From Oscillospiraceae bacterium (lineage in GTDB: Bacteria > Bacillota > Clostridia > Oscillospirales > Acutalibacteraceae): a stretch of DNA of 49,101 nucleotides. The stretch is taken from the NCBI GenBank assembly GCA_015066045.1, contig SVPD01000016.1:1-49101 (forward strand). The letters run 5' to 3'. The position numbers and the translations under genes were made by a program. The notes under the pieces are model-generated. The model saw nothing but the letters and a program-made list of their open reading frames with translations, did no database searches and was not told the DNA's origin. Positions 15,634 to 36,259 of this stretch are shown here, in pieces. Positions within the stretch are counted from its first letter, which is position 1, and each line of letters starts with the position of its first letter.

Positions 15634-16617
15634 TTATTTCCACTGAATATCCCATACCTCATCTATGTAGCCTTCCATACTGCCGCTGCCGCTGATGCCA
15701 ATAGCCTTACCTTCGCCGACACCCTTCATTTCGAGTCTTTCACGGTACCGGATTGTCTTGCCTGAAGCATCTACTAAAACACTCACGGTAGCACCGGGAT
15801 ATTCGAAGTCAACCTTCGTCAGCTCACCGAGAGGAAGAGAGAAGGTAGAAAAGTCGAGAGTGTCACAGGCGGCATTATGGTGGGGAGGACGGGGATTCTG
15901 CAGAGTGCTGGTTTCGGGAACTACCTTTACGGTGTAAAGGGTACCCCCGTCTGTTTCCTCTGCTGTAGCCTCTGCCACACCGTCCACTGTCAGCGTAAAG
16001 GGCTTATCTGTAGGCGGGATTTCGTGATTTATGACAGTCTCCTCACCCTTCTTTTCGGGATTGGGACCTTTGCCGTTTGTGATGTCAAATTCGAGAATTT
16101 CTTCGCCCTCGAAAAAGTCAATAACAGTGTTTATGGCTCCCGTAAGGGCAGGCACGGAGCAGTCAATGAGGTCGATGCTGATAATCTGCTTTTTGACGGC
16201 AGTAAAGGAAGCGGTGTCTGCTTTGATAGAGTTAACGCCCTCGTTGACCTTGGCTAAAATCTCCGCCTTGGTCAGTTCACGCTTTGCGGTGGTGGCGGGA
16301 GCCGTGGTCTGAACGGGTGATGTGGTCTTTTCGGGCTCGGTATTAACGGCCGATGTAACTGTGGGCGCAAGAGTAGCTGACGGCGCAACGGTAGGTGCCG
16401 CAGTGGTCGGTGCCGCAGTAACGACTGTGGTCGGAGCGGTAGCAGTGGGCTGAGCCTCGACAGGCTTTCCGGTGTCACTGCCCGTAAGCTTAAAAATGAA
16501 AACGACCACTACCAGTGCAAGAGCAATTACCAGCAAAATGCCTTTTTTATCGGAAGAGGAAAAGCTGCCGCCTTCCTCCGTCGTTTCCTCTACGGGGTAT
16601 TCATTGAAATTATCCAT
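15634..16617 (-). CDS. Membrane-anchored protein with Thr/Pro-rich stalk and shared C-terminal domain
   Basis: I do not recognise this 327-residue protein by name. It has a short acidic cytoplasmic N-terminus, one membrane helix (about 25-43), a low-complexity Ala/Pro/Thr stalk (about 55-112) and an extracellular domain (about 117-327). The domain starts with a helix (KVNEGVNSIKA) and continues with beta-rich motifs such as LEFDITNG, GTLYTVKVVPE and TVSVLVDASGKTI. The same order of motifs is found in the proteins at 17009-18001, 18066-20834 and 20883-22826. GGAGGAATATACT precedes ATG 16617. It has its own promoter and is followed by the GH3-family gene. The repetitive stalk DNA is likely to vary in length between strains. 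Confidence 0.75.
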   Translation of the reverse strand: MDNFNEYPVEETTEEGGSFSSSDKKGILLVIALALVVVVFIFKLTGSDTGKPVEAQPTATAPTTVVTAAPTTAAPTVAPSATLAPTVTSAVNTEPEKTTSPVQTTAPATTAKRELTKAEILAKVNEGVNSIKADTASFTAVKKQIISIDLIDCSVPALTGAINTVIDFFEGEEILEFDITNGKGPNPEKKGEETVINHEIPPTDKPFTLTVDGVAEATAEETDGGTLYTVKVVPETSTLQNPRPPHHNAACDTLDFSTFSLPLGELTKVDFEYPGATVSVLVDASGKTIRYRERLEMKGVGEGKAIGISGSGSMEGYIDEVWDIQWK

Positions 16618-16652
16618 AGTATATTCCTCCTGTATACAAATTACCGTATACT

Positions 16653-16681
16653 ATTATAGCAATCTGTGCAGCGTTTTTCAA
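16653..16681 (-). promoter_or_regulatory. Promoter of the stalk protein / GH3-family operon
   Basis: On the minus strand TTGAAA (16681-16676) and TATAAT (16658-16653) are 17 bases apart. Just downstream, around the expected start point, two GTATAC palindromes (16646-16651 and 16632-16637) are separated by eight bases and could be an operator. Confidence 0.8.
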
Positions 16682-16693
16682 GTTAAAGTCAAA

Positions 16694-16725
16694 TAAAAAA
16701 AGCGGAGAAGAAAATCTTCTCCGCT
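16694..16725 (-). terminator. Terminator of the 64-residue membrane protein gene
   Basis: AGCGGAGAAG (16701-16710) and CTTCTCCGCT (16716-16725) form a perfect 10-bp stem with an AAAAT loop, followed on the minus strand by TTTTTTTATTTG. Confidence 0.9.
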
Positions 16726-16738
16726 CAAGGTCTGATTT

Positions 16739-16933
16739 TTATGCTACTGTTTCGGAGATAAAGTCATAATCTCCCTCTAATGATGCGCAGGAAACATAGT
16801 TTACTCTGTCATCAGCGTTCTTAAGCTTTTTCTTTTCGATAATTTTAGTTACTGCCACATAAATGCCTGCGATAGCAGCGGCGATAGCGACGATAACTGC
16901 GACAACTTTAAGCACTTTTTTAAAGGTTTCCAT
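16739..16933 (-). CDS. Small single-pass membrane protein, 64 residues
   Basis: I do not recognise this protein. It has a basic N-terminus, one strong hydrophobic helix (about residues 7-29, rich in Ala, Val and Ile), a lysine cluster (IIEKKKLKN) and a polar tail of about 25 residues with a single Cys. This orientation suggests the N-terminal end lies in the membrane and the lysines stay cytoplasmic. ATG 16933 is preceded by GGAGGAATATAAG; the frame extends five codons upstream but without a ribosome site. A near-consensus promoter and a strong terminator bracket it, so it is a monocistronic and probably well-expressed gene. Confidence 0.75.
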   Translation of the reverse strand: METFKKVLKVVAVIVAIAAAIAGIYVAVTKIIEKKKLKNADDRVNYVSCASLEGDYDFISETVA

Positions 16934-16965
16934 CTTATATTCCTCCAAGTAATTATTACCCTTAG

Positions 16966-16999
16966 ATTATAACACCATTTATCGGTAAAGTCAACCGAT
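16966..16999 (-). promoter_or_regulatory. Strong promoter with inverted repeat across the -35 box
   Basis: On the minus strand TTGACT (16994-16989) and TATAAT (16971-16966) are 17 bases apart. ATCGGT (16981-16986) and ACCGAT (16994-16999) form a 6-bp inverted repeat with a 7-base gap that encloses the -35 box, so a repressor site is possible. Confidence 0.8.
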
Positions 17000-17008
17000 T
17001 TATTCATT

Positions 17009-18001
17009 TTAATAGCTGAAAGTGTAATTACTGGTAAAATCACCGTGAACTATAACCTCTACAGGGAAGCCGAGGAAGCTTACATTTGACACGGCCTCAT
17101 CCACCTTAAGATAATGAACCATAGAAAGGATTTTTCCGTCCTTGTCAAAGGTGGCCTCGATTTTCGTGTCCGTGTAGCTCATATCGAGAGTATTCACCGT
17201 CAGTCCCGAGGGGATATAGGGTGTGATGTCCACGACCTCAACCATAGTAGAATGGTTTTTAGCGGGAGTGGTGTAGGTCTGAAGCTCGGGAATCAGAAGA
17301 AGAGTAATCTTGTAGCCTCCGTCACCGGTTTCCGACACCACTGCCGATGATACGGCACTTTCCTCTACATAGGCATTCACATTCAGAGGTGCGATGGCAG
17401 CGTTAGGTGTAAGACCTGTGGCTGAATCGGTACCGCCTGTGAAATTATAGGTGATGGGCTTTTTCTGTACCTGCTGCATAAGACTTTCCGCCATAGTTTT
17501 AGCGATGCTTTCGGCAGGCATCTTATCGATGGTAAGATTAAGCTTATCATCCTTATAAAGAGAAAAGTCCGTCGATGCCTTCAGCTTGTTTATGCCGTCC
17601 ACATAAGCCTTTATGATTTCCGTTTTGCCCTCGGGCACATTTGATTTGGGCTTAGTGGTTTTGGGCGGTTTGGTGGTGGTATTATTTTTATTTACCTCGT
17701 CGATAACCTGTGAAATCTTTATGGATTCCTGCTCCTCCACGTACCATTCGGGGTCCTCTACGGACACATCGGCCATAACGATGTTACCGCCGACAGGCAG
17801 TCGGGTGGTGGGTGCCGTGGTGGTAGGCTCAGTGGTAGAGGGCGCAGTGGTGGAAAAAACCGTGGGGGGAACGGTGGGCGCAGTGGTCTGAGCGGCAAGC
17901 ATCCTGTTTCCGAGCTTTACGGAAAGGACGGTGCTCAGGCAGAACACCCATACACCTACTACAGTGATTACGGCTATCTGGATTGTTTTCTTCTGTTTCA
18001 T
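17009..18001 (-). CDS. Membrane-anchored protein with Thr/Pro-rich stalk and shared C-terminal domain
   Basis: This 330-residue protein has the same plan as the one at 15634-16617. It has a signal-anchor helix (about 8-28), a Thr/Pro-rich stalk (about 38-68) with a second Thr/Lys/Pro patch (108-119), and an extracellular domain (about 127-330). The domain begins with a helix (KAYVDGINKLKA), then ITYNFTGG, GGYKITLLLIPE, and KIEATFDKDGKILSM. These motifs align by eye with the C-termini of three neighbouring proteins. AGGATGAATTAAC precedes ATG 18001. The gene lies 64 bases after the FN3 protein gene and is probably cotranscribed. No catalytic motif is visible. A ligand-binding or matrix role is only a guess. 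Confidence 0.75.
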   Translation of the reverse strand: MKQKKTIQIAVITVVGVWVFCLSTVLSVKLGNRMLAAQTTAPTVPPTVFSTTAPSTTEPTTTAPTTRLPVGGNIVMADVSVEDPEWYVEEQESIKISQVIDEVNKNNTTTKPPKTTKPKSNVPEGKTEIIKAYVDGINKLKASTDFSLYKDDKLNLTIDKMPAESIAKTMAESLMQQVQKKPITYNFTGGTDSATGLTPNAAIAPLNVNAYVEESAVSSAVVSETGDGGYKITLLLIPELQTYTTPAKNHSTMVEVVDITPYIPSGLTVNTLDMSYTDTKIEATFDKDGKILSMVHYLKVDEAVSNVSFLGFPVEVIVHGDFTSNYTFSY

Positions 18002-18018
18002 GTTAATTCATCCTGACA

Positions 18019-18048
18019 ATTCAAGGGATACACGAGGTACCCCTTGAG
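18019..18048 (-). other. Intercistronic hairpin
   Basis: On the minus strand TCAAGGGGTA pairs with TATCCCTTGA (10 bp, one G-T) around a short loop between the FN3-protein gene and the stalk-protein gene. There is no T run, so it is more likely an mRNA processing or stability element than a terminator. Confidence 0.5.
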
Positions 18049-18065
18049 GTTGGTTTTAGATTAGA

Positions 18066-20834
18066 TTATTTGGAGCGGGTGAAGGTAGCAGAGATTTTCT
18101 GTGTGACTGCCATTTTGGTAACGATTTCGAGGTTAATGGTTCCTAATCCGCTGCCTTCACCTGACAGATCCATGGGAGTAACGACACTCATATCCATATT
18201 ATAGGGCATATTTACATCGTAGCTTACGAGTCTGCACTGGTCATCCACTACCACTGTAACAGTAGTTTTACCTATTTTATTAGAGGTTATTACAGTTTTT
18301 GCACCGTTTTTATCTTCCTCGGTTTCACCAATGAGGTCAAACAGGCCGCTATGATAGGGAGCAGAGGTATTATTTGCCTCCTGCTTCAGAACTGCAGTTA
18401 TCTTATAGCCGGCAGAAACTTTGGTGATATTAACGGAATCAAAACCATTTTTCCATGCGGTGGGATTTTCGATGTTATAAATGGATGCATTCTTATAGTT
18501 TGTGGGCTGAATGACATTCTTAAGATATGCATTTGTTTCCTTTCCGGTGGTAAGGTTTTTGATTTTACCGTTTACGCTGCCATCAAAGGTAGCAGTGGTC
18601 TTTTCCGTCACATTAGTGACGGTGGCACCCTCTTCCTCTACGAAGGCCATAAGCGCCTCTACAGATGCCTTATCCTCACAGATAATGTAGCCGTCCTTGA
18701 TTTCATAGTTTGTTCCCTTGAGTGAATCACCGAATATCGAAAACATTCCGTTAAAGAATTGTTTTGTAGCCCAACTGGCATCCTTTGCACCGAACTTCAT
18801 ATAATTGATGTTGCTATTTGTATTTATCGTGGTATTGATTACAAGCTTACCGTCGACAATATTCTTCGTTCTGTTTATAGCCTCAGCCATATATGCGAGA
18901 TAAGAAGCCTTGGCTGCATCGGAATTATCGTTAAGATTAATTTTTGGAGTTTCAATTACAAATCTTATTGTATTAACACCAATTTTGACTGTAAAGTTGT
19001 GTGAAAGAGCTGGAGCAAGGGTATATTTAGCATAAGTATTACTAAAATCCTGAGATTCACTGTAAGACTTGCCAGATTCACTGTAAGTACGTCTAGTTAC
19101 CTTGTAAGAAGATGTGCCAGACTGAGCAGGCCAGCTAAAGGCAACCTGACAACCACTCTGTTCAACAGAATATCCTGTATCAGTAAAATAAACAGGAGCA
19201 GAAGTACAAATAACCTTTCCGTTCTTATCATAAGCTGCTACCTTATATGTCTCAACCGGATATTCGCAGGGAGCTACAACAGAGGTAGAATTCTTACAGT
19301 CAAGAAAATCTTCGTCCCACTGATTGGCAACTGTATTAAAATGGATAAGCATATAGCCTGCCGCACCATCAATTTTATCCCATACAATAGTTTTAGTAGA
19401 ATAATTTACACTCTCGAAAAATTCTGAAGTGAAATCATTTACAACATTAGAATAAGCGCCGTTCTGGTTTTTACCGCTATTCTGATTTACTGCACTTACT
19501 CTGAAATAATATTTGGTGTTTGCATTAAGATTAGAAACTGTAGCTGATGCTGCAGTAGTAGTAATGCTTGACCATGTCTTATTATCCTTACTGTACTGTA
19601 TCTGATAGCTTTTCGCACCTGTAGTCTTGGTCCATGAAAGAGCGACAGTTGAACCTGTAACTTTACCTACCTTAAGTCCTGTAATCTGAGCACAGGGAGA
19701 GGTGAAGCTGATGGCTGAGGTTGCCTTACCTACAGTGGAGCCCGCATAGGGTACGACAGTGATTTTATAGGTGGTACCTGCCTTAATGGGAAGAGTAACA
19801 GATGTAGTCTTTACATCAGCGATCTGACTGCCGTTATTAAGTACACGGTATGCGGTAGCACCGGGAGCTGCCTTCCATGTTACCTTTACGGATGTAGCGG
19901 AGAGAGAGGAATAGCTTACGGAGCTTACATTACCGATAGCGGTCTTTGCCTTGATTGTCTTCCAGCTGTTATAGTAGGTCTTTTTGCCGGATTTCTGGAA
20001 GGCTCTTACACGGAACTCATAGTTAGTGAGAGCTGAAAGCTTTTTAACTGTGTAAGAGGTAGTCTTTGCCTTTTTGATGGTGGTTACGGTCTTCCAGCTT
20101 TTACCTGATTTCTGCTGGATTTCGTAGCCGTTTGCATCGCTGATTTTAGACCATGTGAGAGTTACTGAGGAATCAGTTACGGATTTTACGGAAGCGGTAG
20201 ACAGAGCAGGTACTGCCGTTTTACCCTTTACCTCAGTATAAGAGCCGTAGTAGGTTTTGGCGCTGCCGGAAACATAGCCTCTGATGCGGAAGGTTACGCT
20301 TTTACCTGCTGAAAGCTTTTTAACGGTGTAGGATGTGGTCTTGGCTTTTTTGATTTTGGTGACGGTCTTCCATTTTTTGCCGTCCTTACGCTGAATTTCG
20401 TAGCCTGTTACGTTAGCTTTATCCCATGTAAGCTTTACGGAAGTGAGGCTGACTGAGGTGGCCTTTACACCTGTAATTTTCTGAACACCCGTCTTTACCT
20501 TGGCGGTAACATAGGCACCCTTTTTCTTGCCGTTTACGGCACGGATACGGAACTGATAGGTAGTACCGTTCTTAAGCTTTTTAACTGTGTAGGATGTGGT
20601 TTTCTGCTTTTTGATGGTTGCCACAGTCTTCCATTTTTTGCCCGACTTCTGCTGAACCTCGTAGCCTTTGGCACCTGAGGTCTTTTTCCACGTGAGGGTA
20701 ACCTCTGTGGGCTTGGCCGAAGCGGTAAAGCCTGTTACCTTTTTAACCGATGCGGCTGAGACCGAAGCCACCGTAGCGATAATAAGGCACATGCTGAAAA
20801 TGAAAGTCACTATGGCCGTCAATACTTTTTTCAT
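18066..20834 (-). CDS. Exported multi-FN3 protein with shared C-terminal domain
   Basis: This 922-residue protein has a signal peptide (about 1-28, ending near VSA). It then has about five clear fibronectin type III repeats (each near 85-90 residues), two more divergent ones, and a C-terminal domain from about 655. The first three repeats share nearly identical blocks such as KKAKTTSYTVKKL, WKTVT and GYEIQ. The C-terminal part shows a helix (YLAYMAEAINRTK), TATFDGSVNG, AGYKITAVLKQE and TTVTVVVDDQCRLVSYDV, as in three neighbouring proteins. GGAGGAAAAACT precedes ATG 20834. No LPXTG motif or SLH domain is present, so attachment is unclear. DNA of repeats 5-7 (about 18900-19650) is noticeably more A+T-rich than the rest. 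Confidence 0.85.
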   Translation of the reverse strand: MKKVLTAIVTFIFSMCLIIATVASVSAASVKKVTGFTASAKPTEVTLTWKKTSGAKGYEVQQKSGKKWKTVATIKKQKTTSYTVKKLKNGTTYQFRIRAVNGKKKGAYVTAKVKTGVQKITGVKATSVSLTSVKLTWDKANVTGYEIQRKDGKKWKTVTKIKKAKTTSYTVKKLSAGKSVTFRIRGYVSGSAKTYYGSYTEVKGKTAVPALSTASVKSVTDSSVTLTWSKISDANGYEIQQKSGKSWKTVTTIKKAKTTSYTVKKLSALTNYEFRVRAFQKSGKKTYYNSWKTIKAKTAIGNVSSVSYSSLSATSVKVTWKAAPGATAYRVLNNGSQIADVKTTSVTLPIKAGTTYKITVVPYAGSTVGKATSAISFTSPCAQITGLKVGKVTGSTVALSWTKTTGAKSYQIQYSKDNKTWSSITTTAASATVSNLNANTKYYFRVSAVNQNSGKNQNGAYSNVVNDFTSEFFESVNYSTKTIVWDKIDGAAGYMLIHFNTVANQWDEDFLDCKNSTSVVAPCEYPVETYKVAAYDKNGKVICTSAPVYFTDTGYSVEQSGCQVAFSWPAQSGTSSYKVTRRTYSESGKSYSESQDFSNTYAKYTLAPALSHNFTVKIGVNTIRFVIETPKINLNDNSDAAKASYLAYMAEAINRTKNIVDGKLVINTTINTNSNINYMKFGAKDASWATKQFFNGMFSIFGDSLKGTNYEIKDGYIICEDKASVEALMAFVEEEGATVTNVTEKTTATFDGSVNGKIKNLTTGKETNAYLKNVIQPTNYKNASIYNIENPTAWKNGFDSVNITKVSAGYKITAVLKQEANNTSAPYHSGLFDLIGETEEDKNGAKTVITSNKIGKTTVTVVVDDQCRLVSYDVNMPYNMDMSVVTPMDLSGEGSGLGTINLEIVTKMAVTQKISATFTRSK

Positions 20835-20882
20835 AGTTTTTCCTCCGTTCTTGATTTTATAATCATTTTGCCGTGCAAATAA

Positions 20883-22826
20883 TTATACGATGAAATACTG
20901 CTGAGAGAGTGTGAAGCTCACTTCGTGCTTTTCTCCCTCCAGCCGGAATGTTAATTTCACGGGAACCTCTATAATAAGCTGTCCCAAAGCTCCGCCGACT
21001 ATTTTGGACCGAACCTCAGCCTCTCCCGTCTTACAGGAGGTAAGCACGAAGCCGTCTGTATTGTCTCTGAGCTCATATATGGCGGTAAGGTCTGCGATAT
21101 CCTTTACCTCATCAGCCGAAACGGTGAAGTCCACGGTGTAGCCGCTTCCGCTCTCTCTGAAGGTGACGGAGCCCCTTTCCATATCCGCATAGGCAAGACT
21201 GCTCTCTTTGCCGTAGGGATGGATAAGGTCGCTTACGGTGAGTCCGTCCTCGCCCGTCAGACCGTCTTCAAAGGTGTAGAAAAGAGTTTCGCTGCAGCAG
21301 AGAGCATCTGTCACGCTCTGAGGTATCTCGCCCTCAGACTCGAAACCGGAAGCACTGAAGCGGGTTATAAGCTGAAAATCACCCGTGAGCCTTTTCGTAG
21401 AGGAAAGAGCACTGATAAAGTCCTCAGCCGCCTGCTGAGCGGTGGCGGGAATATACTCGGTGGTAAAGGTAAAGGTCTTACTGAAGGAGCCTTCCCTCTT
21501 ATCCGAGTCAAAGGTCTTTATTCTGAAGCGGTAGGCAGTGTCGGGGCTGAGTCCCGTTACCTCAGCGGAAAGCTCTGAGGTGCTTTCGCAGAGAACATAG
21601 TCCTTTTTCTCTTTACTGTAAATGTAGAGATTGTAGCCTGCTGCCCCGTCAACCTTGTCCCATAAAAGAGTAAGGGAGTCGGGATAAATATCCTCTGCAT
21701 CTGCAGTAATGACCGACACGGTGCCGGGAAGAGTTTTTCCCTTTACCTGCGCAGAGTATGCGGCACTGTCTGTGCTGCCGTATTTGTTTTTCGTGTAGGC
21801 CTTCAGTGCGAAGATGTACTCTCTGTCCGGTGAAAGTCCGGTGATGTCGGCCTTCAGAGCCGAGGTAGCCCATTTATATGTATAGACCTTTTTCGCCGTG
21901 TCGTAAAGATAGATTTTATAGCCCGAGGCATTGCTTACCTTGCTCCACGAAAGAGTAAGAGAGCCGTCTGTGGCGGAAATGACCTTAAGCCCCGTAACCG
22001 CTGAGGGTGCGGCAGGAAGTGCAGACACCGCTTTTTTGGCTTTTTTCTTTTTTACCGTAACGGTGCAGACTGCCTTTTTTCCGCTGCCGTCTTTGGCCTT
22101 ACAGGTGATTACGGCAGTGCCCTTTGCTTTGGCGGTGATAACACCCTTACTGCTTACGGTGGCCACCTTTTCGTTGCTGGATGAGAAGGTAACCTTACTG
22201 TTATAAAGCTTTGCAGGCTTTTTGGTCACGCTGAGCTTCAGAGTGTCGCCCTGAGTGAGGACGGTTTCCTCCTCGTCGAGCTTAAGGCTCGTCATATAAC
22301 GGTAGCCGAGCTTTATGTTCTTCTGCTTTTTTATGTACTTTTCTCCCTTGGAGCCCTTTACCACATAAACGGTCAGCTTATCGCAGCCCTCAAAGATATT
22401 CTTTCCGAATTTGGTGACACCGGCAGGAATTACCGCCTTTTCCAGATTCGTGCAGTACCAGAAAGCCGAGGAAGAGATTTTAGTAACCTTGGAGGGAATG
22501 ACTATCTTTTTAAGAGAGGTGCATTCATTGAAAGCCGCCTCACCGATTTTGGTGACTGTTTTCGGAAGCTCAACGCTCTGCAGCTTCTTTCTGCCCGAAA
22601 AAGCCCATTCACCGATAGCCGTAACCTTATATTTTCCGACCTTGGAGGGTACCTTTATTTTTTTCGCATTGCTTTTACATTCGACAAGAGTAGCCGTTTT
22701 CTTTGTTACCTCATAAACAAGCTTATTTTCAGTGACTGTTTTGGCACTTACGGAAAAGACCGTCAGAACAGTCAGTGCAATTACGGTAAAAGCAAACAGA
22801 AGTGATTTTTTAAATCTGTTGTTCAT
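20883..22826 (-). CDS. Exported BspA-LRR / Big_2 / FN3 protein with shared C-terminal domain
   Basis: This exported protein of about 647 residues is built in modules. It has a signal peptide (1-28), BspA-type leucine-rich repeats (about 40-150; pattern AF..C..L..V.IP), a bacterial Ig-like Big_2 domain (about 175-262; SSNEKVATVSSKGVITAKAKG), two FN3 domains (about 275-460) and a C-terminal domain (about 468-647). The last domain begins EDFISALSSTKRL, with LFYTFEDG and GSGYTVDFTVSAD, matching three neighbouring proteins. GGAGGAGTGTGTA before ATG 22826 decides the start over ATGs further upstream. It leads a probable transcript into the FN3 gene 48 bases downstream. BspA-like modules often bind host or matrix proteins; that role is inferred. 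Confidence 0.85.
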   Translation of the reverse strand: MNNRFKKSLLFAFTVIALTVLTVFSVSAKTVTENKLVYEVTKKTATLVECKSNAKKIKVPSKVGKYKVTAIGEWAFSGRKKLQSVELPKTVTKIGEAAFNECTSLKKIVIPSKVTKISSSAFWYCTNLEKAVIPAGVTKFGKNIFEGCDKLTVYVVKGSKGEKYIKKQKNIKLGYRYMTSLKLDEEETVLTQGDTLKLSVTKKPAKLYNSKVTFSSSNEKVATVSSKGVITAKAKGTAVITCKAKDGSGKKAVCTVTVKKKKAKKAVSALPAAPSAVTGLKVISATDGSLTLSWSKVSNASGYKIYLYDTAKKVYTYKWATSALKADITGLSPDREYIFALKAYTKNKYGSTDSAAYSAQVKGKTLPGTVSVITADAEDIYPDSLTLLWDKVDGAAGYNLYIYSKEKKDYVLCESTSELSAEVTGLSPDTAYRFRIKTFDSDKREGSFSKTFTFTTEYIPATAQQAAEDFISALSSTKRLTGDFQLITRFSASGFESEGEIPQSVTDALCCSETLFYTFEDGLTGEDGLTVSDLIHPYGKESSLAYADMERGSVTFRESGSGYTVDFTVSADEVKDIADLTAIYELRDNTDGFVLTSCKTGEAEVRSKIVGGALGQLIIEVPVKLTFRLEGEKHEVSFTLSQQYFIV

Positions 22827-23043: not shown

Positions 23044-25155
23044 TCAGTTGACTCTCAGAAAGCTCATAGCCTCCACGGTTACACCGTTTACGGAGACAGG
23101 CTTACTGCCGTAATTCACATAAATGCCCGTACTGTTATCGTAGCAGGTGTAGTAGACATTCTTTTTCACTCTGTAATGGTCAGTGATTCGTGCATAACGC
23201 AGATCACCGAAGGCCTCGGCGGCTCTTTCGTACCGGCTCTGTGCCTCGGTTATGGAGTTAAGATAGCTGAATTTGTCGATCTTTTCCTGAGAGGAAAGGT
23301 CTGCGGCATACCATTCATAATAGGGCACGGCACCGTATTCGATACATTTGAGAAAGGCCTTTTCACTGTTTTTGCTGCCGTTTACCGGCTCACAGGAATA
23401 GTCGGCTATACCGTGGAGTATGGCCTGAACGAAAGGCACTGCCGTGCAAAGCTCTCTGCCGTCAACGGACGCAGAAGCAGGCACATTTACTATCACATCG
23501 GCATATTTGACCGCATACATATTTCCTGTGTCAAGCATAAGCCTGCCCGAAGCCGAAACGGCTCCCGTCTGTCCGGAAATGATGTCGGCGGTGTCTGTTT
23601 TAAGACGGAAGGCTCCGTCAGTGCAGTCACCGTAAAGAAAAGCTCCCGCATCGTTTATGCACACGCCCTGCACTCCGCTCTCTCTCATCAGAGAAAGCAG
23701 AGAATTTGTGCTTTCATCTATTCTGTCCACGGAGATATAAGCTCTGTCCCCGTCTGTAACGGGCTCACCGTCGGGTTTCAGCGCGGCGAAGGAGGTATCC
23801 TCAGCCTTATATGCTGATGTCAGGGCTGCGTCCGTGTAAAAGCTCACACCGTTTCCCCCGTAGGCAAGAAGCGCATCAAGCTCGCTCCTTTTACCCGGCT
23901 CTGCGGAATACTCTGCCTCTGTTACGGCAGAGGGTGTAAGCACACCTCTCATACGAAGATTAACGTTACCGATACCCTTGGCTTTAAGAGAATCGAGAAT
24001 TTCCTGCGCCTGAGAATAGGTGGTAAGAGTCTGAGACCTCACCTTTCCCTTAGCATCGGTCACATAATTCTGAAAAACCACACTCAGATTAAAGGGATAA
24101 TCGCCCTTTTCACCGTCTTTTACCGTCAGCAGATATCCGTTTCGGATAAGCAGCTCTCTCACGGCACCGGCCATTCCGGTGTAGTTCGCACTGTCATAAG
24201 AAAGGAAGCGGTAAATAAGCCTCAGCTTTCCCGTGTAGCCCTCATTGCACACATAAGCCCTGTCCTCTGCATCCTCAGCAGGCGTTACGGCAAAGCTGCC
24301 GTACACTCTGTTAAAGCCGCCCGACGAAAGAGCCTTCAGGGCTCTGATGCAGGAAAGCTCCTCCCCCTCATCGATAAGCACCGCAAAGGCACTGTCACCC
24401 TTTTTCATGCCGAAGGCACCGAGAAGAACGCCCTGCTGATAAACAGGAAGTGAAATGCTCTCGAATTTTTCGGGATTTTCGGAAAGATCCACAGTAGCTC
24501 CGCAGCCGTCGGGAAGAAGGATATAATCACCCTCCTCTCCCTTTGTATCAGAGCCGAAAAAAGGCAGAATATCTATGTCGGTAACGACTGCATCACCGTC
24601 ATGGTTTTCACCGTAAAGCTTGCTGCAGTCAGCCTCTACGGCCAGAGCTCCGTCGGTAAGAGTATAGGAAACGGGAAGAAAAAGATTTATCTTCGTGCCG
24701 TCCTCCAGAGTACGCTTGAAGCCGTAATTTACCGTGACACCGTTTTCCCTTTCTTCATAAAGAGCCGAGGAAAAGCCTACACTGTCGCTCTGTGAGGAAA
24801 GAGTATATCTGTTACCCTTTATAAGAACGGTAAGTGCTACGGCAGAGGTCTTTTCAGAGCCGGCTTTTTCGGGAAGAGATGACCACAACTCACCCGAGGC
24901 AGTGTCGAAAACACTGACCGTGCAGGTTTCACTGTCGAAATAAAGCTCTATCATATCACTTTTGGCTATTCGCCTGAGCTTGTTTTTACTCTTGGAGGAA
25001 TAAAGAGCCTTATTATCCGTGTCGGCAGAAACCGCAAGTCCGCTCTCCTCCCTTCTGACCGTGTGAGAAGCGGGCACAGACCTTCCGCAGGCAGAAAGAG
25101 AAAGCAAAAGCACTGCCGAAAGAAGCGCCGCCGAAAGCTTTTTTAATATATCCAT
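23044..25155 (-). CDS. Large lipoprotein, DUF5696-like
   Basis: This 703-residue protein has a lipoprotein signal with lipobox LSAC (Cys23), so it should be anchored on the outer face of the membrane. The beginning of the mature part (EWLYFDSE-like stretch at ELYFDSETCTVSVFDTASGELW) resembles the start of DUF5696 lipoproteins of Firmicutes. The middle and end look like a glycosidase-type barrel, with alternating strand and helix segments such as VNLRMRGVL and GVQGVCINDAGAF. I cannot name catalytic residues. AAAGGTGACGTGAA precedes ATG 25155. It lies just behind sigF but has its own strong promoter, so it need not belong to the sporulation operon. The family name is from memory and moderately sure. 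Confidence 0.65.
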   Translation of the reverse strand: MDILKKLSAALLSAVLLLSLSACGRSVPASHTVRREESGLAVSADTDNKALYSSKSKNKLRRIAKSDMIELYFDSETCTVSVFDTASGELWSSLPEKAGSEKTSAVALTVLIKGNRYTLSSQSDSVGFSSALYEERENGVTVNYGFKRTLEDGTKINLFLPVSYTLTDGALAVEADCSKLYGENHDGDAVVTDIDILPFFGSDTKGEEGDYILLPDGCGATVDLSENPEKFESISLPVYQQGVLLGAFGMKKGDSAFAVLIDEGEELSCIRALKALSSGGFNRVYGSFAVTPAEDAEDRAYVCNEGYTGKLRLIYRFLSYDSANYTGMAGAVRELLIRNGYLLTVKDGEKGDYPFNLSVVFQNYVTDAKGKVRSQTLTTYSQAQEILDSLKAKGIGNVNLRMRGVLTPSAVTEAEYSAEPGKRSELDALLAYGGNGVSFYTDAALTSAYKAEDTSFAALKPDGEPVTDGDRAYISVDRIDESTNSLLSLMRESGVQGVCINDAGAFLYGDCTDGAFRLKTDTADIISGQTGAVSASGRLMLDTGNMYAVKYADVIVNVPASASVDGRELCTAVPFVQAILHGIADYSCEPVNGSKNSEKAFLKCIEYGAVPYYEWYAADLSSQEKIDKFSYLNSITEAQSRYERAAEAFGDLRYARITDHYRVKKNVYYTCYDNSTGIYVNYGSKPVSVNGVTVEAMSFLRVN

Positions 25156-25179
25156 TTCACGTCACCTTTAAAAGCAAAA

Positions 25180-25234
25180 TCAGCATCCCGTAAGATACTG
25201 ACCGCATTATAACACAGAATTATTAAAATTTCAA
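25180..25234 (-). promoter_or_regulatory. Promoter and 5' hairpin of the lipoprotein gene
   Basis: On the minus strand TTGAAA (25234-25229) overlaps the sigF stop codon, and TATAAT (25211-25206) follows after 17 bases. The leader then holds TCAGTATC/GATGCTGA (25201-25194 with 25187-25180; one G-T pair), a short hairpin near the start of the message. Confidence 0.8.
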
Positions 25235-25896
25235 ATCAGACTCTGTCGCATTTTCAGAAGTATGGCTTTCTCACGTCTGGACACCTGCACCTGAGACATA
25301 TTAAGCTCCTTGGCAGTGTTTACCTGAGTCATCCCTCTGTAGTATCTGAGCTCTATGAGCCGTCTGTCCCTGTCCTCGAGCCTGTCGATGAGAGTTTTAA
25401 GTGCTATGCGCTCGGATATCTCCTCCTCGGGGGAGTCCGTGGGAATGTCTATCTGACTCGTGCCCTTTTCATCCTCACCGGTAAGAGACATGGCAGGCAT
25501 AGAAACGGTGATAAGCTCTGCCGCCTCACTGACGGAAACTCCCAGCCTCTCTGCCAGCTCCGTTATGGTAGCCTCTCTGCCCAGCTCTTTGGAAAGCTCT
25601 TCGCCTGTTTTAACCGCATTTCTCGATTTTTCCTTTAAGGTTCTGCCTATTTTTACCAGTCCTCCGTCACGGAAAATCCTTTTTATTTCGCCCAGAATCA
25701 CAGGAACGGCATAGGTAGAAAATGCAAAGCCTCTGCTACGGTCGAAATTATCTGCCGCCTTTATAAGTCCTATACACCCCGCCTGAAAAAGGTCATCATA
25801 CTCCACTCCTCTGCCTCTGAAGCGATTGGCACAGGAATGCACCAGACCGTAGTTATTATCTATCAGCTCGCTGCGGGAAAGATTTTTTTCGGTCAC
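25231..25896 (-). CDS. sigF: Sporulation sigma factor SigF
   Basis: SigF is the first forespore-specific sigma factor and is held inactive by SpoIIAB. The 221-residue length is slightly shorter than B. subtilis SigF. Region 2 is visible in DDLFQAGCIGLIKAADNFD and FSTYAVPVILGEIKRIFRD, region 3 in ELGREATITELAERLGVS, and region 4 in RDRRLIELRYYRGMTQVNTAKELNMSQ followed by VQVSRREKAIL. The gene follows spoIIAB by 14 bases in the canonical spoIIAA-spoIIAB-sigF order, which separates it from SigB or SigG. Together with the Spo0A-like gene at 3771-4361 it indicates an endospore-forming ancestry. Confidence 0.93.
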   Translation of the reverse strand: MTEKNLSRSELIDNNYGLVHSCANRFRGRGVEYDDLFQAGCIGLIKAADNFDRSRGFAFSTYAVPVILGEIKRIFRDGGLVKIGRTLKEKSRNAVKTGEELSKELGREATITELAERLGVSVSEAAELITVSMPAMSLTGEDEKGTSQIDIPTDSPEEEISERIALKTLIDRLEDRDRRLIELRYYRGMTQVNTAKELNMSQVQVSRREKAILLKMRQSLI

Positions 25897-25910
25897 TTAC
25901 GGGCTCCTCC

Positions 25911-26345
25911 TCATATCATTTTACCCCGGATTTTTTTATCCAGAGTAACCGTAGTACCCTTACCGACCTTCGAAATCACCCGTATTCTGTCCATCATAGA
26001 CTCCATAACGGCGAAGCCGAGACCTGCTCTTTCGCCCTTAGAGGTAGTAAAAAGAGGCTCCATAGCTTTTTCTATGTTTTCGATGCCGATACCCTTGTCA
26101 CGGATTTTCACCCTGACAGTATTATTATCATAAAGGTTAACGGTTATGTAAATTTTTCCCTCTTTTTCTCTGTAGCCGTGAACGATGGAATTGGTAACCG
26201 CCTCGCTTACGGCGGTTTTTATGTCTGTTATTTCCTCGATATTCGGGTCCAGACAGGCCACGAAGGCCGACACGGAAACTCTGGCAAAGCCCTCATTGAC
26301 GCTTCTGGACTCCAGCACCATTTTCAGCTCATTTACACTTTTCAT
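25911..26345 (-). CDS. spoIIAB: Anti-sigma F factor and serine kinase SpoIIAB
   Basis: SpoIIAB binds and inhibits SigF and phosphorylates the anti-anti-sigma factor SpoIIAA. The 144-residue protein is a GHKL ATPase. The N box is AVSEAVTNSIVHGY (Glu48, Asn52), the G1 box is IRDKGIGIENIEKAMEP, followed by LFTTSKGERAGLGFAVMES with the ATP lid and G2 glycine pattern. Its ATG overlaps the spoIIAA stop codon (ATGA), so the partners are translated in a coupled way and in balanced amounts. Confidence 0.94.
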   Translation of the reverse strand: MKSVNELKMVLESRSVNEGFARVSVSAFVACLDPNIEEITDIKTAVSEAVTNSIVHGYREKEGKIYITVNLYDNNTVRVKIRDKGIGIENIEKAMEPLFTTSKGERAGLGFAVMESMMDRIRVISKVGKGTTVTLDKKIRGKMI

Positions 26346-26665
26346 CCCACTGTCTCCTTCACTCTGATTTCTCCTAATTTTTCTATCCCCGCCAGCTTCA
26401 TAACCTTATAGGCCGAGGGAGACAGGTTGTCCACCTTTATTTTTCCTGAATGGGTTCTCATCAGCTTATACCGCCCCATAACCAGACCTATGGCAGAGCT
26501 GTCCATAAAGCTTACCCCGTCAAAGTCAAGAATAAGAAGCTCGGGGCGGCGGAGAATTATGGCATCATCTATTCCCGTTCTGATGAGAGAGGCACTGTGA
26601 TGGTCTATTTCTCCGTCCAGATAAACCCGTATTTCCTTTCGGGTGTATTCTAATTTCGCAGACAT
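26342..26665 (-). CDS. spoIIAA: Anti-sigma F factor antagonist SpoIIAA
   Basis: SpoIIAA is a STAS-domain protein. When unphosphorylated it releases SigF from SpoIIAB in the forespore. The 107 residues include the phosphorylation motif FMDSSAIGLVMGRY, where Ser57 corresponds to the phosphorylated serine of B. subtilis. GGAGGAAAGAAAAA precedes ATG 26665. It heads the three-gene operon. The folC terminator ends only a few bases before its ribosome site, so the position of the sporulation promoter is not evident; I found no convincing sigma-H -35/-10 pair. Confidence 0.93.
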   Translation of the reverse strand: MSAKLEYTRKEIRVYLDGEIDHHSASLIRTGIDDAIILRRPELLILDFDGVSFMDSSAIGLVMGRYKLMRTHSGKIKVDNLSPSAYKVMKLAGIEKLGEIRVKETVG

Positions 26666-28072: not shown

Positions 28073-28100
28073 ATTATACCATTTCACAGGGATATGTCAA
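28073..28100 (-). promoter_or_regulatory. Consensus promoter of folC
   Basis: On the minus strand TTGACA (28100-28095) and TATAAT (28078-28073) are 16 bases apart. The -35 box lies inside the last codons of the upstream gene. Confidence 0.88.
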
Positions 28101-28854
28101 CTAATTTTTCATATTCGCTGCTGCGAAGCTCCTTTACGAAGCACACCTCACAGAGTGCCGAAATAAAATCCGTCAGATTTATCCCCGCAGGGCAGAGGGA
28201 CTCATAGCAGCCCCGTATTTTTATGCCCTCACCCGTCAGAACTCTGGCGAAGGGAAGAAGCCTTTTTTCTCCCGTAATAAGCAGTCCCTTAAAGTACACG
28301 GGCACCGTATCGCTGCGGCAGGAAATTATTATCCCCTTTTCGGGAATGGCTGAAAGCTTATCGCTGACGAAAAGTGATATTCCGTATTCCTCCATCAGCC
28401 TTTTCGCCTGCGCCTCATAGGCTCTCCTGTTATCCGTTATCACCTTAAGCTCCCCCGCAAAGCTCACCAGACGGCCTATTTCCGTGTGAAGCACGCCCTT
28501 TTTATCGATAAGGGTTATCAGAGTCTCCGCAGGATTCAGCACACTTTTCTTAAGTCGGGAAACTGCCGAATTGAAAAGAAGTATATCCCTGAAATAGGAT
28601 GAAGAATAGCTCTTTATCTGCACACTGCTTTTAAAGCCCTCGGGAAAAATCAGTCCGTCGGTAAGAGAGGCGGTTATCCTTTTCAGCCTTTCCTCCGGTA
28701 TCTTTCCCTTATGCACCGGCACCTTAATTCTGTAAAAATATTCGTTTTCGGGCAGACTTACCTTTTCGGTTATTATCCTGTCACCCGTAAAGGCTCTTTT
28801 CAGCCTTTCCTTAAGCCCCTTTTCCCTTTCGTAAAGCTCTACTGTCCCAAACAA
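28084..28854 (-). CDS. Conserved-looking cytoplasmic protein of unknown function
   Basis: I do not recognise this protein. The reading frame extends to 29082, but its upstream part has a composition unlike a protein start. TTG at 28854, six bases after GAGGTG, is the best start and gives about 256 residues beginning MFGTVELYERE. There is no signal peptide or membrane helix. The N-terminal half is basic and mixed alpha/beta; the C-terminal half alternates short strands and helices (TLITLIDKKGVLHTEIG, LFVSDKLSAIPEKG), and CYESLCPAGINLTDFISALCEVC is cysteine-rich, with four Cys that might bind a metal. It is divergent from the two-component system and lies 42 bases before folC. Confidence 0.6.
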   Translation of the reverse strand: MFGTVELYEREKGLKERLKRAFTGDRIITEKVSLPENEYFYRIKVPVHKGKIPEERLKRITASLTDGLIFPEGFKSSVQIKSYSSSYFRDILLFNSAVSRLKKSVLNPAETLITLIDKKGVLHTEIGRLVSFAGELKVITDNRRAYEAQAKRLMEEYGISLFVSDKLSAIPEKGIIISCRSDTVPVYFKGLLITGEKRLLPFARVLTGEGIKIRGCYESLCPAGINLTDFISALCEVCFVKELRSSEYEKLVDISL

Positions 28855-28958
28855 AAAAATCACCTCATAAAATGCTATGTGAACCGAAAAGAAAAAAGAA
28901 GCGGTGTTCATTTTTAGTTGGTTTAAGGTAATTTTTTTATTATTATCCTGCACAGGAA

Positions 28959-28988
28959 TTGAAGAACGGCATATTTTTGTGATACAAT
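28959..28988 (+). promoter_or_regulatory. Probable promoter of the two-component system
   Basis: TTGAAG (28959-28964) and TACAAT (28983-28988) are 18 bases apart, about 23 bases before the response-regulator start. Confidence 0.6.
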
Positions 28989-29011
28989 ATAAAAAAACAG
29001 GAGGATTCAAT

Positions 29012-29689
29012 ATGAGACTTTTACTGGCTGAGGACGAAAAAGACCTGTCCAGAGCTCTCTGCGCAGTGCTCAAGCACAACAATTATTCCGTCGATGCGGT
29101 TTACGACGGACAGGATGCTCTCGACTACGGTCTTTGCGAAAACTACGACGGAATTATTCTGGACATAATGATGCCGAAGAAAAACGGCATAGACGTACTT
29201 AAGGAATTAAGACAGAAGGGTGTGGACACACCTATTCTCATGCTCACGGCAAAGGCTGAAACAGACGACAAAATAGCAGGTCTTGACGCCGGTGCCGACG
29301 ATTATCTTACCAAGCCCTTTTCCATGGGTGAGCTTATGGCGCGAATCAGAGCCATCACCAGACGTAAGGCAGAGTTTTCGCCAAATCTGCTCACCTTCGG
29401 CAAGCTCTCTCTGAACAGAGCGACCTATGAGCTTTCCGTGGGAGAGGAGTCCATCAGGCTCGGAAACAAAGAATTTCAGATGATGGAAATGCTTCTTTCC
29501 AACCCCGGCAGACTCATTTCTACAGAGCAGTTTATGGAAAGAATCTGGGGCTACGAAACGGAAGCGGAAATCAATGTGGTATGGGTTTACATTTCATATC
29601 TGCGTAAAAAGCTCAGCACCCTCGGCGCCGACCTTGAAATCAAGGCAGTCAGAGGCGTGGGCTACACCTTGGAAAAAATTTCGGAATAA
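29012..29689 (+). CDS. OmpR/PhoB-family response regulator
   Basis: This 225-residue protein has a receiver domain (1-115) with acidic residues in LLAEDEKD, the phosphoacceptor Asp51 in YDGIILDIMMP, the Thr/Ser site in ILMLTAKAE and the Lys in DYLTKPFS. A winged-helix DNA-binding domain (about 130-222) follows, with WVYISYLRKKL and the C-terminal hairpin GVGYTLE. AGGAGGATTCAAT precedes ATG 29012, which is preferred over upstream ATGs in the open frame. It is followed by its histidine kinase. The signal and target genes are unknown; no dedicated neighbour such as a transporter gives a hint. Confidence 0.92.
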   Translation: MRLLLAEDEKDLSRALCAVLKHNNYSVDAVYDGQDALDYGLCENYDGIILDIMMPKKNGIDVLKELRQKGVDTPILMLTAKAETDDKIAGLDAGADDYLTKPFSMGELMARIRAITRRKAEFSPNLLTFGKLSLNRATYELSVGEESIRLGNKEFQMMEMLLSNPGRLISTEQFMERIWGYETEAEINVVWVYISYLRKKLSTLGADLEIKAVRGVGYTLEKISE

Positions 29690-34459: not shown

Positions 34460-36259
34460 TTATTCACCCTTTATCAGCTTACTGAAATCACTGTTAAAGA
34501 AATTTTTGGTCGAGTAAGGAATTACTACCGTTTCGGTGTAGCCCTTGGGATGCACCGAGCAGAAAATGAAGCCGTTTTCCGAAAGTGCAGAAGCAGACTC
34601 ATAAAAGGTTTTGCCTATTTCGTCCGTATCCTCGGGAATGCCTAATGCGGCATCCTCGCCCTTAAGCAGGCTTTCGTAGTCATAGCCCTCATATATACGG
34701 TAAATCACCTCGTAAACCAGATGATACTGAGTGTCGATAATTTCCTTGGCTGAAAGGAAGTTACCCGTCTCGACATCGATGATATATCCCTCTACGGTTC
34801 TTTCGGGCAGAGTGATAAACTGCTCTGCCGCCTCAGTGGCACCTGCAGTGCCTGCCGGCACCGTGGTATCTGTGACTTCTTTGGCCGGCTGAGGACTGTA
34901 CTGCGAAAGACCTTCTACGATGGAAATGTAGCCGTTACGGTTATAGGTTACTCTTGCCACGGCGTGAGTGACATAGGGAAGCTCCTTTTTGTCTCCGCCT
35001 TTTCTGATAAACCTTTTGTAGTCCTTGTCGGCGGTTTCCGTCTGAAGAGTGTAGTTATTTATAAGCTCGGCAAACATACTGTTTACCGCCTTTTCACCCT
35101 CACTGCTTCCTTTGAAATAGGGATATTCCACGTTATATTCCGCATAAACCACTCCATCCTCGGTGACTGCCTGAATGGTCTGCGACTCGATAATATAGGA
35201 AAGCTCGTTTTTACCGCTTTCATCCTTTATCATAAAGCCGGTGGCATCGAAAACGGGCTCATGGGAAATACGGATAAGTCTCCATGGGATGTCGTCCTCG
35301 CCTGCCTGCTCATTTTTGTCAAGAATAATATATGCCTTAAGATAGCTGCTGTCGGCCTTGTCTGAGCTTTGGTCGTAAAAGCTGCACTCGACATAGTAGC
35401 TGCCGTCCTGTATACGCTTCGAGGAGCTTACAGACACTGACACGCTCTGACTGAAGGAATAGTCGGAAAGGTTTGCGAAATAGTATTTTCCGTCGTAGTA
35501 ATAAAAATCTTTTTCGTTGACATTATGGTTAACGTCAAAGCCGAAGCTTTTCAGTATTTTGTCCACTCTCTTGGCCTTGAGCGCATAAAAGCTATAATCT
35601 CCGTTTTCATTGGCAAAGCGGCCGTTAGGATCCGCCTCATTTACCGTAAGGTCGGGAGTGCCGTAAAAGCGACTGTAAATTCCGCCGCCGTCATAAGGGC
35701 GAAGAAACTCCATAACGTCTACGATAACATCCTCTTCTCTGTCGAAGCCGTTATAGGCTATGACGGAAATTTTCGAAAGGTAGTCCTCCAGCTCTGCCGT
35801 TTCCGAGGAAGACAGACCTGAAAGAGCCAGAGCCATAACCGTGTCCTCATCCTTTTCGAAAACATCGGTGCCGAGACTCACGCCTACCAGTGCCCCTATG
35901 CCGACAAATGCCACCACCATAAGAGAAATAATGAAATTAAAGGCTCCTCTTTCTTTCCGTGACATTTTTTTCATCTTTTGTCTTTCTCTCTGCTGCACGG
36001 GCTGAGGCCTTTCCTTTTCCTCCGGCTTTTCGGGCTCCGGCTGAGGCTCAGTGCTCTCTGCGGCATAAACAGGCACGGAGAACTCATCCTCCGCTTTTTC
36101 GTCGGAATAAGAGGAAATATCCTCAAATTCTCCTAAGGCAAGAGAGACTATTTCGTTTATATCTTTTTCTTTTTTCTCCGTCCCGCTGATGGGAGTATCA
36201 CATTCGGGACAGACTGTAAGGTCATCGCTGAATATATTTGCACAGTTTTTACAAATCAT
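34460..36259 (-). CDS. Zinc-ribbon membrane protein with large external domain
   Basis: I do not recognise this 599-residue protein as a named family. It starts with a zinc ribbon (Cys3, Cys6, Cys17, Cys20), then a charged Pro/Glu/Lys-rich linker (about 25-105), one membrane helix (about 106-128) and an external region of about 470 residues. That region has no catalytic motif I can see, but has many aromatic and Tyr-rich strands. A Thr/Ala/Pro patch near residues 450-475 splits it in two. AAAGGAAGTTTAAGA precedes ATG 36259. It is the last gene of the transcript led by rimP-nusA, 36 bases behind the HAD gene. Such zinc-ribbon anchored proteins are common in Clostridia; a sensing or envelope role is only a guess. 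Confidence 0.75.
   Translation of the reverse strand: MICKNCANIFSDDLTVCPECDTPISGTEKKEKDINEIVSLALGEFEDISSYSDEKAEDEFSVPVYAAESTEPQPEPEKPEEKERPQPVQQRERQKMKKMSRKERGAFNFIISLMVVAFVGIGALVGVSLGTDVFEKDEDTVMALALSGLSSSETAELEDYLSKISVIAYNGFDREEDVIVDVMEFLRPYDGGGIYSRFYGTPDLTVNEADPNGRFANENGDYSFYALKAKRVDKILKSFGFDVNHNVNEKDFYYYDGKYYFANLSDYSFSQSVSVSVSSSKRIQDGSYYVECSFYDQSSDKADSSYLKAYIILDKNEQAGEDDIPWRLIRISHEPVFDATGFMIKDESGKNELSYIIESQTIQAVTEDGVVYAEYNVEYPYFKGSSEGEKAVNSMFAELINNYTLQTETADKDYKRFIRKGGDKKELPYVTHAVARVTYNRNGYISIVEGLSQYSPQPAKEVTDTTVPAGTAGATEAAEQFITLPERTVEGYIIDVETGNFLSAKEIIDTQYHLVYEVIYRIYEGYDYESLLKGEDAALGIPEDTDEIGKTFYESASALSENGFIFCSVHPKGYTETVVIPYSTKNFFNSDFSKLIKGE

Follow-up and report, generated by a model that had tools for sequence, protein, structure and literature searches.

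A shared C-terminal domain of predicted LolA/LppX-like fold in four neighbouring exported proteins of an Oscillospiraceae bacterium

A stretch of 49,101 nucleotides from an Oscillospiraceae bacterium (contig SVPD01000016.1 of assembly GCA_015066045.1, positions 1 to 49,101; hereafter the window) encodes four neighbouring exported proteins, here called A to D. The host genome assembly totals 2.24 Mb in 68 contigs. An initial annotation of the window had suggested that these proteins, with quite different N-terminal halves, end in the same undescribed domain, and that the domain had been repeatedly shuffled within the cluster. The locus raises the question of whether the four C-termini are homologous, what kind of domain they form, and what such a domain might do at the end of such different proteins. 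The proteins and their C-terminal domains, with lengths in amino acids (aa), are as follows.

15634-16617, minus strand: protein A, from its open reading frame (ORF); short cytoplasmic N-terminus, membrane anchor (by eye), Thr/Pro stalk, shared C-terminal domain
15640..16266, minus strand: shared domain of A, 209 aa, from blastp and profile comparisons; a separate lineage in the tree
17009-18001, minus strand: protein B, from its ORF and the architecture survey; N-terminal membrane anchor (by eye), Thr/Pro stalk, shared C-terminal domain
17012..17623, minus strand: shared domain of B, 204 aa
18066-20834, minus strand: protein C, from its ORF and the Pfam scan; signal peptide (by eye), FN3 array, shared C-terminal domain
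18075..18908, minus strand: shared domain of C, 278 aa, the longest of the four, from profile comparisons
20883-22826, minus strand: protein D, from its ORF and Pfam; signal peptide (by eye), BspA-type LRR_5, Big_2, two FN3 stretches, shared C-terminal domain
20886..21437, minus strand: shared domain of D, 184 aa

All four ORFs were found at these coordinates on the minus strand; for D there is an alternative upstream start, a GTG (22856). The N-terminal halves are indeed dissimilar. In the Pfam scan, that of C matched fn3 (7.2e-42, five stretches) and that of D matched LRR_5 (3.2e-25), Big_2 (4.5e-14) and fn3 (1.5e-16, two stretches), while in A and B, which begin with the anchor and Thr/Pro stalk, the shared domain is the only evident folded domain. 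Its length ranges from 184 to 278 residues across the four proteins.

Relatedness of the four C-termini

Single-sequence blastp gave one significant pair, A-B (E 1.6e-5, 24% over 189 residues). The remaining five pairs were not significant (best E 0.028–1.5), which would suit the explanation that the likeness reflects chance beta-strand patterns with no common ancestry. Comparison of profiles built from orthologue sets contradicts this explanation: all six pairs were similar, with probabilities of 99.95% (A-B), 98.96% (A-C), 97.49% (A-D), 99.22% (B-C), 98.34% (B-D) and 97.82% (C-D), against a maximum of 2.7% for controls in which each pair was column-shuffled 20 times and reversed once, and of 0.45% for an FN3 control. 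Coincidental similarity is excluded by these probabilities and controls, and the independently built models of the B and D domains, described below, have the same core order; we give it next to no weight. The C-termini of A, B, C and D are, on this profile evidence, almost certainly one homologous domain, as had been proposed for the four neighbours.

Searches with partial profiles gave a graded picture of this relationship. A profile that combined A and B with three paralogues from the same genome retrieved C in a whole-genome search (E 2.2e-4) and did not find D in that genome at E ≤ 10, while iterated profiles that included D-type orthologues retrieved D at E 8.2e-9. In the opposite direction, phmmer with D alone found stalked proteins in other genomes (E 3e-5 and 7e-5), and a profile of D-type sequences only found window protein B (E 2.3e-11; the matched ORF was confirmed as identical to B). 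The motif order listed in the initial annotation was borne out by the alignments, in which YxxAxNxxKA, F..G, the GY-type strand and Y.g..I.A..D..G fall in the same columns. The fourth of these, a strand-turn block, had been assigned to three of the four proteins; the motif aligns, and the restriction to three does not hold, since D also has an equivalent stretch, VRSKIVGGALGQL.

Predicted fold and relation to named families

AlphaFold models were made separately for the domain of B, with a predicted local distance difference test (pLDDT) score of 95.5, and for that of D, from D-type sequences only (pLDDT 91.1). Both have the same core order of helices and strands: an N-terminal helix leads into a single antiparallel sheet with long strands, with the topology of the LolA/LppX superfamily. 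They differ in that the long strand 141-159 of B is two strands in D, and the short strand 113-116 of B is without counterpart in D. DSSP assigned eight strands to each model, several of them 14–19 residues long, which may merge two; the superfamily core is described as having 11 strands (PMC6363788). By mean hydropathy, strands E1, E2, E4 and E7 are two-faced, E5 is less so, and E3 and E6 are not. The domain has conserved polar columns at K15, N12, Y150 and E113.

No LolA-superfamily chain was found in profile searches of the PDB at E ≤ 10 with domain profile A2 or at E ≤ 1 with profile A5, and none at E ≤ 1 with an alignment of DUF6612 (A7). Matches to bL21 in these searches (E 0.02–0.15) covered only 34–69 columns and were taken as chance. 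Judged by its predicted fold, the domain is likely to be a new, divergent branch of the LolA/LppX superfamily.

Its setting differs from that of the better-known members. LppX, LprF and LprG are stand-alone lipoproteins of mycobacteria, whereas the domain described here forms the C-terminus of clostridial proteins that are either stalked or secreted and multidomain; it has no sequence-level match to them, and its models have eight strands. LolA, RseB and MucB are periplasmic carriers or sensors in outer-membrane bacteria and, unlike the present domain, occur to our knowledge without FN3, LRR or stalk.

The Pfam and NCBIfam scans covered the window proteins and 74 members of the domain family, with a Pfam scan of a set of 13 members. 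None of the four window C-termini exceeded a Pfam or NCBIfam cut-off. The 74 members gave scattered matches (best E 4e-4, among the best 25 of 50 and 25 of 27 families), and such sub-cut-off names on C-termini or stalks were taken as noise. One match weighs against the reading favoured here: residues 524-539 of a protein in locus L190 (2328-4265), inside the domain, exceed the cut-off of PF19079 (CFSR, collagen-flanked surface repeat), a family that also matches weakly in 3 of the 74 members; it may reflect a short shared strand motif. Within the scans made, no Pfam or NCBIfam family convincingly covers the domain, and no publication on it was found in literature searched by titles and abstract openings, in which few subscription papers were covered. 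The description of the domain as undescribed stands as far as a family name is concerned; the predicted fold, in contrast, resembles a known superfamily.

DUF6612 (PF20316) appears to be distant sequence kin. None of the four window proteins was listed for it at E ≤ 1, and no member was seen to reach its cut-off of 23.7 bits (best E 0.051; one of the 74 and one of the 13). Aligned by hhalign against 19 DUF6612 sequences (17 used), the domain profile gave a probability of 96.0% (score 62.5, 85 columns), with controls at 14.0 (best of 30 shuffles) and 12.0 (reversed); by type, the values were 67.7% for A, 87.3% for B, 94.2% for C and 12.4% for D. In the set seen, DUF6612 proteins are mostly short lipoproteins; some carry other parts, for example SLH in L067, and none was seen with a stalk or FN3 array. 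The BspA-type LRR, Big_2 and FN3 families of surface proteins match the N-terminal parts of C and D and exclude the shared C-terminal domain.

Distribution, architectures and descent

All 34 genomes of the genus that were searched matched the domain, with 3–13 matches each (E ≤ 0.001); five of them, close relatives, are 'Clostridia bacterium' genomes assembled from gut metagenomes of ruminants (goat, sheep and water buffalo). The host genome itself has five more genes with a membrane anchor and stalk (by eye) and the domain or a divergent form of it (G000:C33, C32, C58, C42 and C3, which are loci L002, L003, L005, L061 and L075). The search in other Clostridia was likewise productive: in a sample of the family, 48 of 200 genomes and 32 of 135 genera matched (E ≤ 0.01), three of the 48 genomes being of the same genus and four matching only at E above 1e-5.

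Samples of the order (295 genomes; E ≤ 0.01, profile A2), class (391) and phylum (398; both E ≤ 0.001, profile A5) outside the genus yielded 13 different proteins. Nine are DUF6612 over the Pfam cut-off (L064, L066, L067, L068, L070, L191, L195, L197 and L198). Within the order, only 14 of 147 sampled genomes have DUF6612, two of them in the same family as the host, so that its abundance is unlikely to explain this enrichment. The domain is clearly present in L063 (E 2.7e-9) and probably in L069 (E 6e-4 over half of the profile), while L065, with a sub-threshold prenyltransferase match, and L196, a LysM protein, were taken as chance matches. A viral origin was set aside: the B model had no structural match in BFVD at E ≤ 0.001, and one PHROG match was seen in one of 75 members.

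The domain is combined with FN3, BspA-LRR, Big_2, dockerin and membrane stalks. An architecture survey of the collected loci comprised 162 matched ORFs, 111 of them uncut at the 5' end, in a set that includes at least two DUF6612 proteins. Among the 111, the protein ends no more than 5 residues past the domain in 102, a hydrophobic stretch lies within the first 80 residues in 109, and 86 are shorter than 420 aa; a lipobox-like motif occurs in 13, and LPxTG in the last 60 residues in none. The protein of L039 carries two copies of the domain, and in that of L046 four Big_2 stretches precede it. In L036 (2071-4218) and L037 (1218-4109, with FN3), domain copies are followed by 125–150 further residues, which resemble each other by eye and, in L037, have no Pfam name. 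In other genera, LRR_5, Dockerin_1 and the domain occur together in L186, L187 and L189 (dockerin at 36.9, 29.4 and 24.4 bits; cut-off 22.9), and dockerin matches below the cut-off were found in L190 (22.0 bits, two domain copies) and L069 (20.2 bits). Because it stands beside these dockerin-type matches, the domain may join cohesin-dockerin assemblies.

The descent of these combinations was followed in a maximum-likelihood tree of 92 rows with 200 bootstrap trees. The C-type (25 rows), B-type (22) and D-type (10) domains each form one side of a branch in 200 of 200 bootstrap trees. C and D join, together with one other row (96/87), and A falls among stalked proteins from other genera. The single clades of B, C and D types suggest that each of these architectures was established a single time and passed on thereafter. 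The window domains look like old paralogues. With these clades and the separate lineage of A, the idea of repeated shuffling within the cluster is not supported, and neither recent shuffling nor tandem duplication in place finds backing in the tree. By the same tree, shuffling did occur elsewhere, among other architectures of the genus: ten genus rows of these required seven label changes, at least four of them forced by well-supported branches.

Genomic pairing and possible role of the domain

In 27 of the 34 genomes of the genus, a gene for a repeat protein that ends in the domain stands directly before a same-strand gene for a stalked protein with the same ending; the gap is 10–226 bp (median 62). 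The end of the stretch truncates the repeat protein in three of these pairs (G003, G006 and G022), and the repeat protein of G027 is D-like, not C-like. Of the remaining seven genomes, six have loci without the pair (G018, G021, G024, G025, G030 and G033), some of which were not chosen for a B-type gene, and G016 is without any locus. A D-type gene directly precedes the repeat protein in 10 of the 34 genomes. The genes for D, C and B have the look of a single operon inherited as a unit. Between B and A lie a 64-residue ORF and a terminator-like site, and A is preceded by a promoter-like site of its own, so that D-C-B and A are probably separate transcription units; such sites are only slightly commoner here than in shuffles (promoters 19 versus 14.9, terminators 19 versus 11.7).

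The reading that we favour, somewhat ahead of an even chance and on the basis of the models, is that the domain is a LolA/LppX-like extracellular ligand-binding head. LolA/LppX-type domains are known mainly as carriers of lipids or lipoproteins, as sensors and, in one case, as an enzyme (PMC6363788), and characterised members of the fold bind hydrophobic ligands (PMC6363788). Taken with the four two-faced strands, this favours binding of an amphiphile, and we put the chance that the domain binds an amphiphilic or hydrophobic ligand at about one in two. The trough of the sheet would hold a lipid, glycolipid or acylated peptide, as in LprG and LolA. In A and B, the head would be the working part on a membrane anchor, raised into or through the wall by the Thr/Pro stalk; in C and D it would terminate a secreted FN3 or LRR/Big_2/FN3 chain, whose domains probably contact the outside or each other. 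Given the operon-like co-inheritance of D, C and B, the three proteins probably cooperate at the cell surface, dealing with the same kind of ligand at differing distances from the membrane.

Because the secreted/stalked gene pair is so constant, the main rival is that the domain serves for docking: the copy at the end of secreted C or D would bind its counterpart on membrane-stalked B (or A), so that the FN3/LRR chains stay on the cell without sortase or S-layer anchors. The absence of LPxTG from the surveyed ORFs and of any anchor domain in C and D, in the Pfam scan or by eye, would agree with this, and some LolA-fold proteins, EPDR1 and VioE, dimerise (PMC6363788). LolA-superfamily structures are, however, mostly monomeric (PMC6363788). 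Stalked proteins in other genera mostly lack such a repeat partner within the stretches examined, and the domain also occurs beside dockerins, which can themselves dock a protein. We consider this docking unlikely, though the strongest of the rivals. A variant, held with similar reserve, treats the lipid-carrier fold as a 'plug': the ends of the FN3/LRR chains would meet the same domain on the stalked neighbour, docking there or relaying an amphiphilic ligand from outside, by way of the chain, to the membrane of a Gram-positive cell.

Less probable still is a cell-wall or surface attachment module comparable to SLH or CWB domains. Its C-terminal position in most surveyed ORFs, and the need of secreted C and D for some way of staying on the cell, are what such a module would predict. 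Yet a membrane helix is already present at the N-terminus of A, B and most relatives, and apart from it they show no evident folded part but the domain, which makes a working head likelier than an anchor; a role as anchor alone was rejected on these grounds. The domain is also one long unit, not a set of short repeats, and its predicted fold is LolA/LppX-like. A sensor that reads envelope lipids and signals, as RseB/MucB do, is improbable: no anti-sigma or kinase family was listed for any of the four proteins in the Pfam and NCBIfam scans. Genes upstream of D (region 23044-26665, minus strand) presumably encode sigma-F, SpoIIAB and SpoIIAA, but only in close relatives did a sigma-F-like gene turn up next to the cluster, and 20 further, short stretches from the genus gave one weak SpoIIAB-like match (L166).

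The LolA/LppX superfamily is already known; what is new is a domain family without a name, apparently an unnamed branch that serves as a mobile C-terminal module with FN3, BspA-LRR, Big_2, dockerin and stalks. A profile of it would annotate many nameless exported proteins, and with the conserved gene pair for a secreted and a stalked protein, surface assembly or lipid capture by Gram-positive bacteria of the gut could be put to a simple biochemical test. If the 'plug' reading were true, the dockerin-bearing relatives would link the module to cellulosome-like assemblies.

Around the four genes, the complete order DUF5696 - D - C - B - A - GH3 is kept in three close relatives (L048, L050 and L051). 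The DUF5696 protein lies upstream of D (region 23044-26665, minus strand), a position kept in these relatives. Farther away, two minus-strand ORFs (34460-36259, 599 aa, and 28084-29082, 332 aa) have no Pfam match at the threshold used (1e-5; best E 0.089). The 64-residue ORF between B and A (16739-16933, minus strand) has one likely membrane helix, with its own promoter-like site at 16994-16966 and terminator-like site at 16726-16700. Directly after A is a gene of the GH3 family (Pfam PF03321; 13945-15624, minus strand), a family best known for plant-hormone amido synthetases; it keeps its place after A in the three close relatives, at 90–93% identity.
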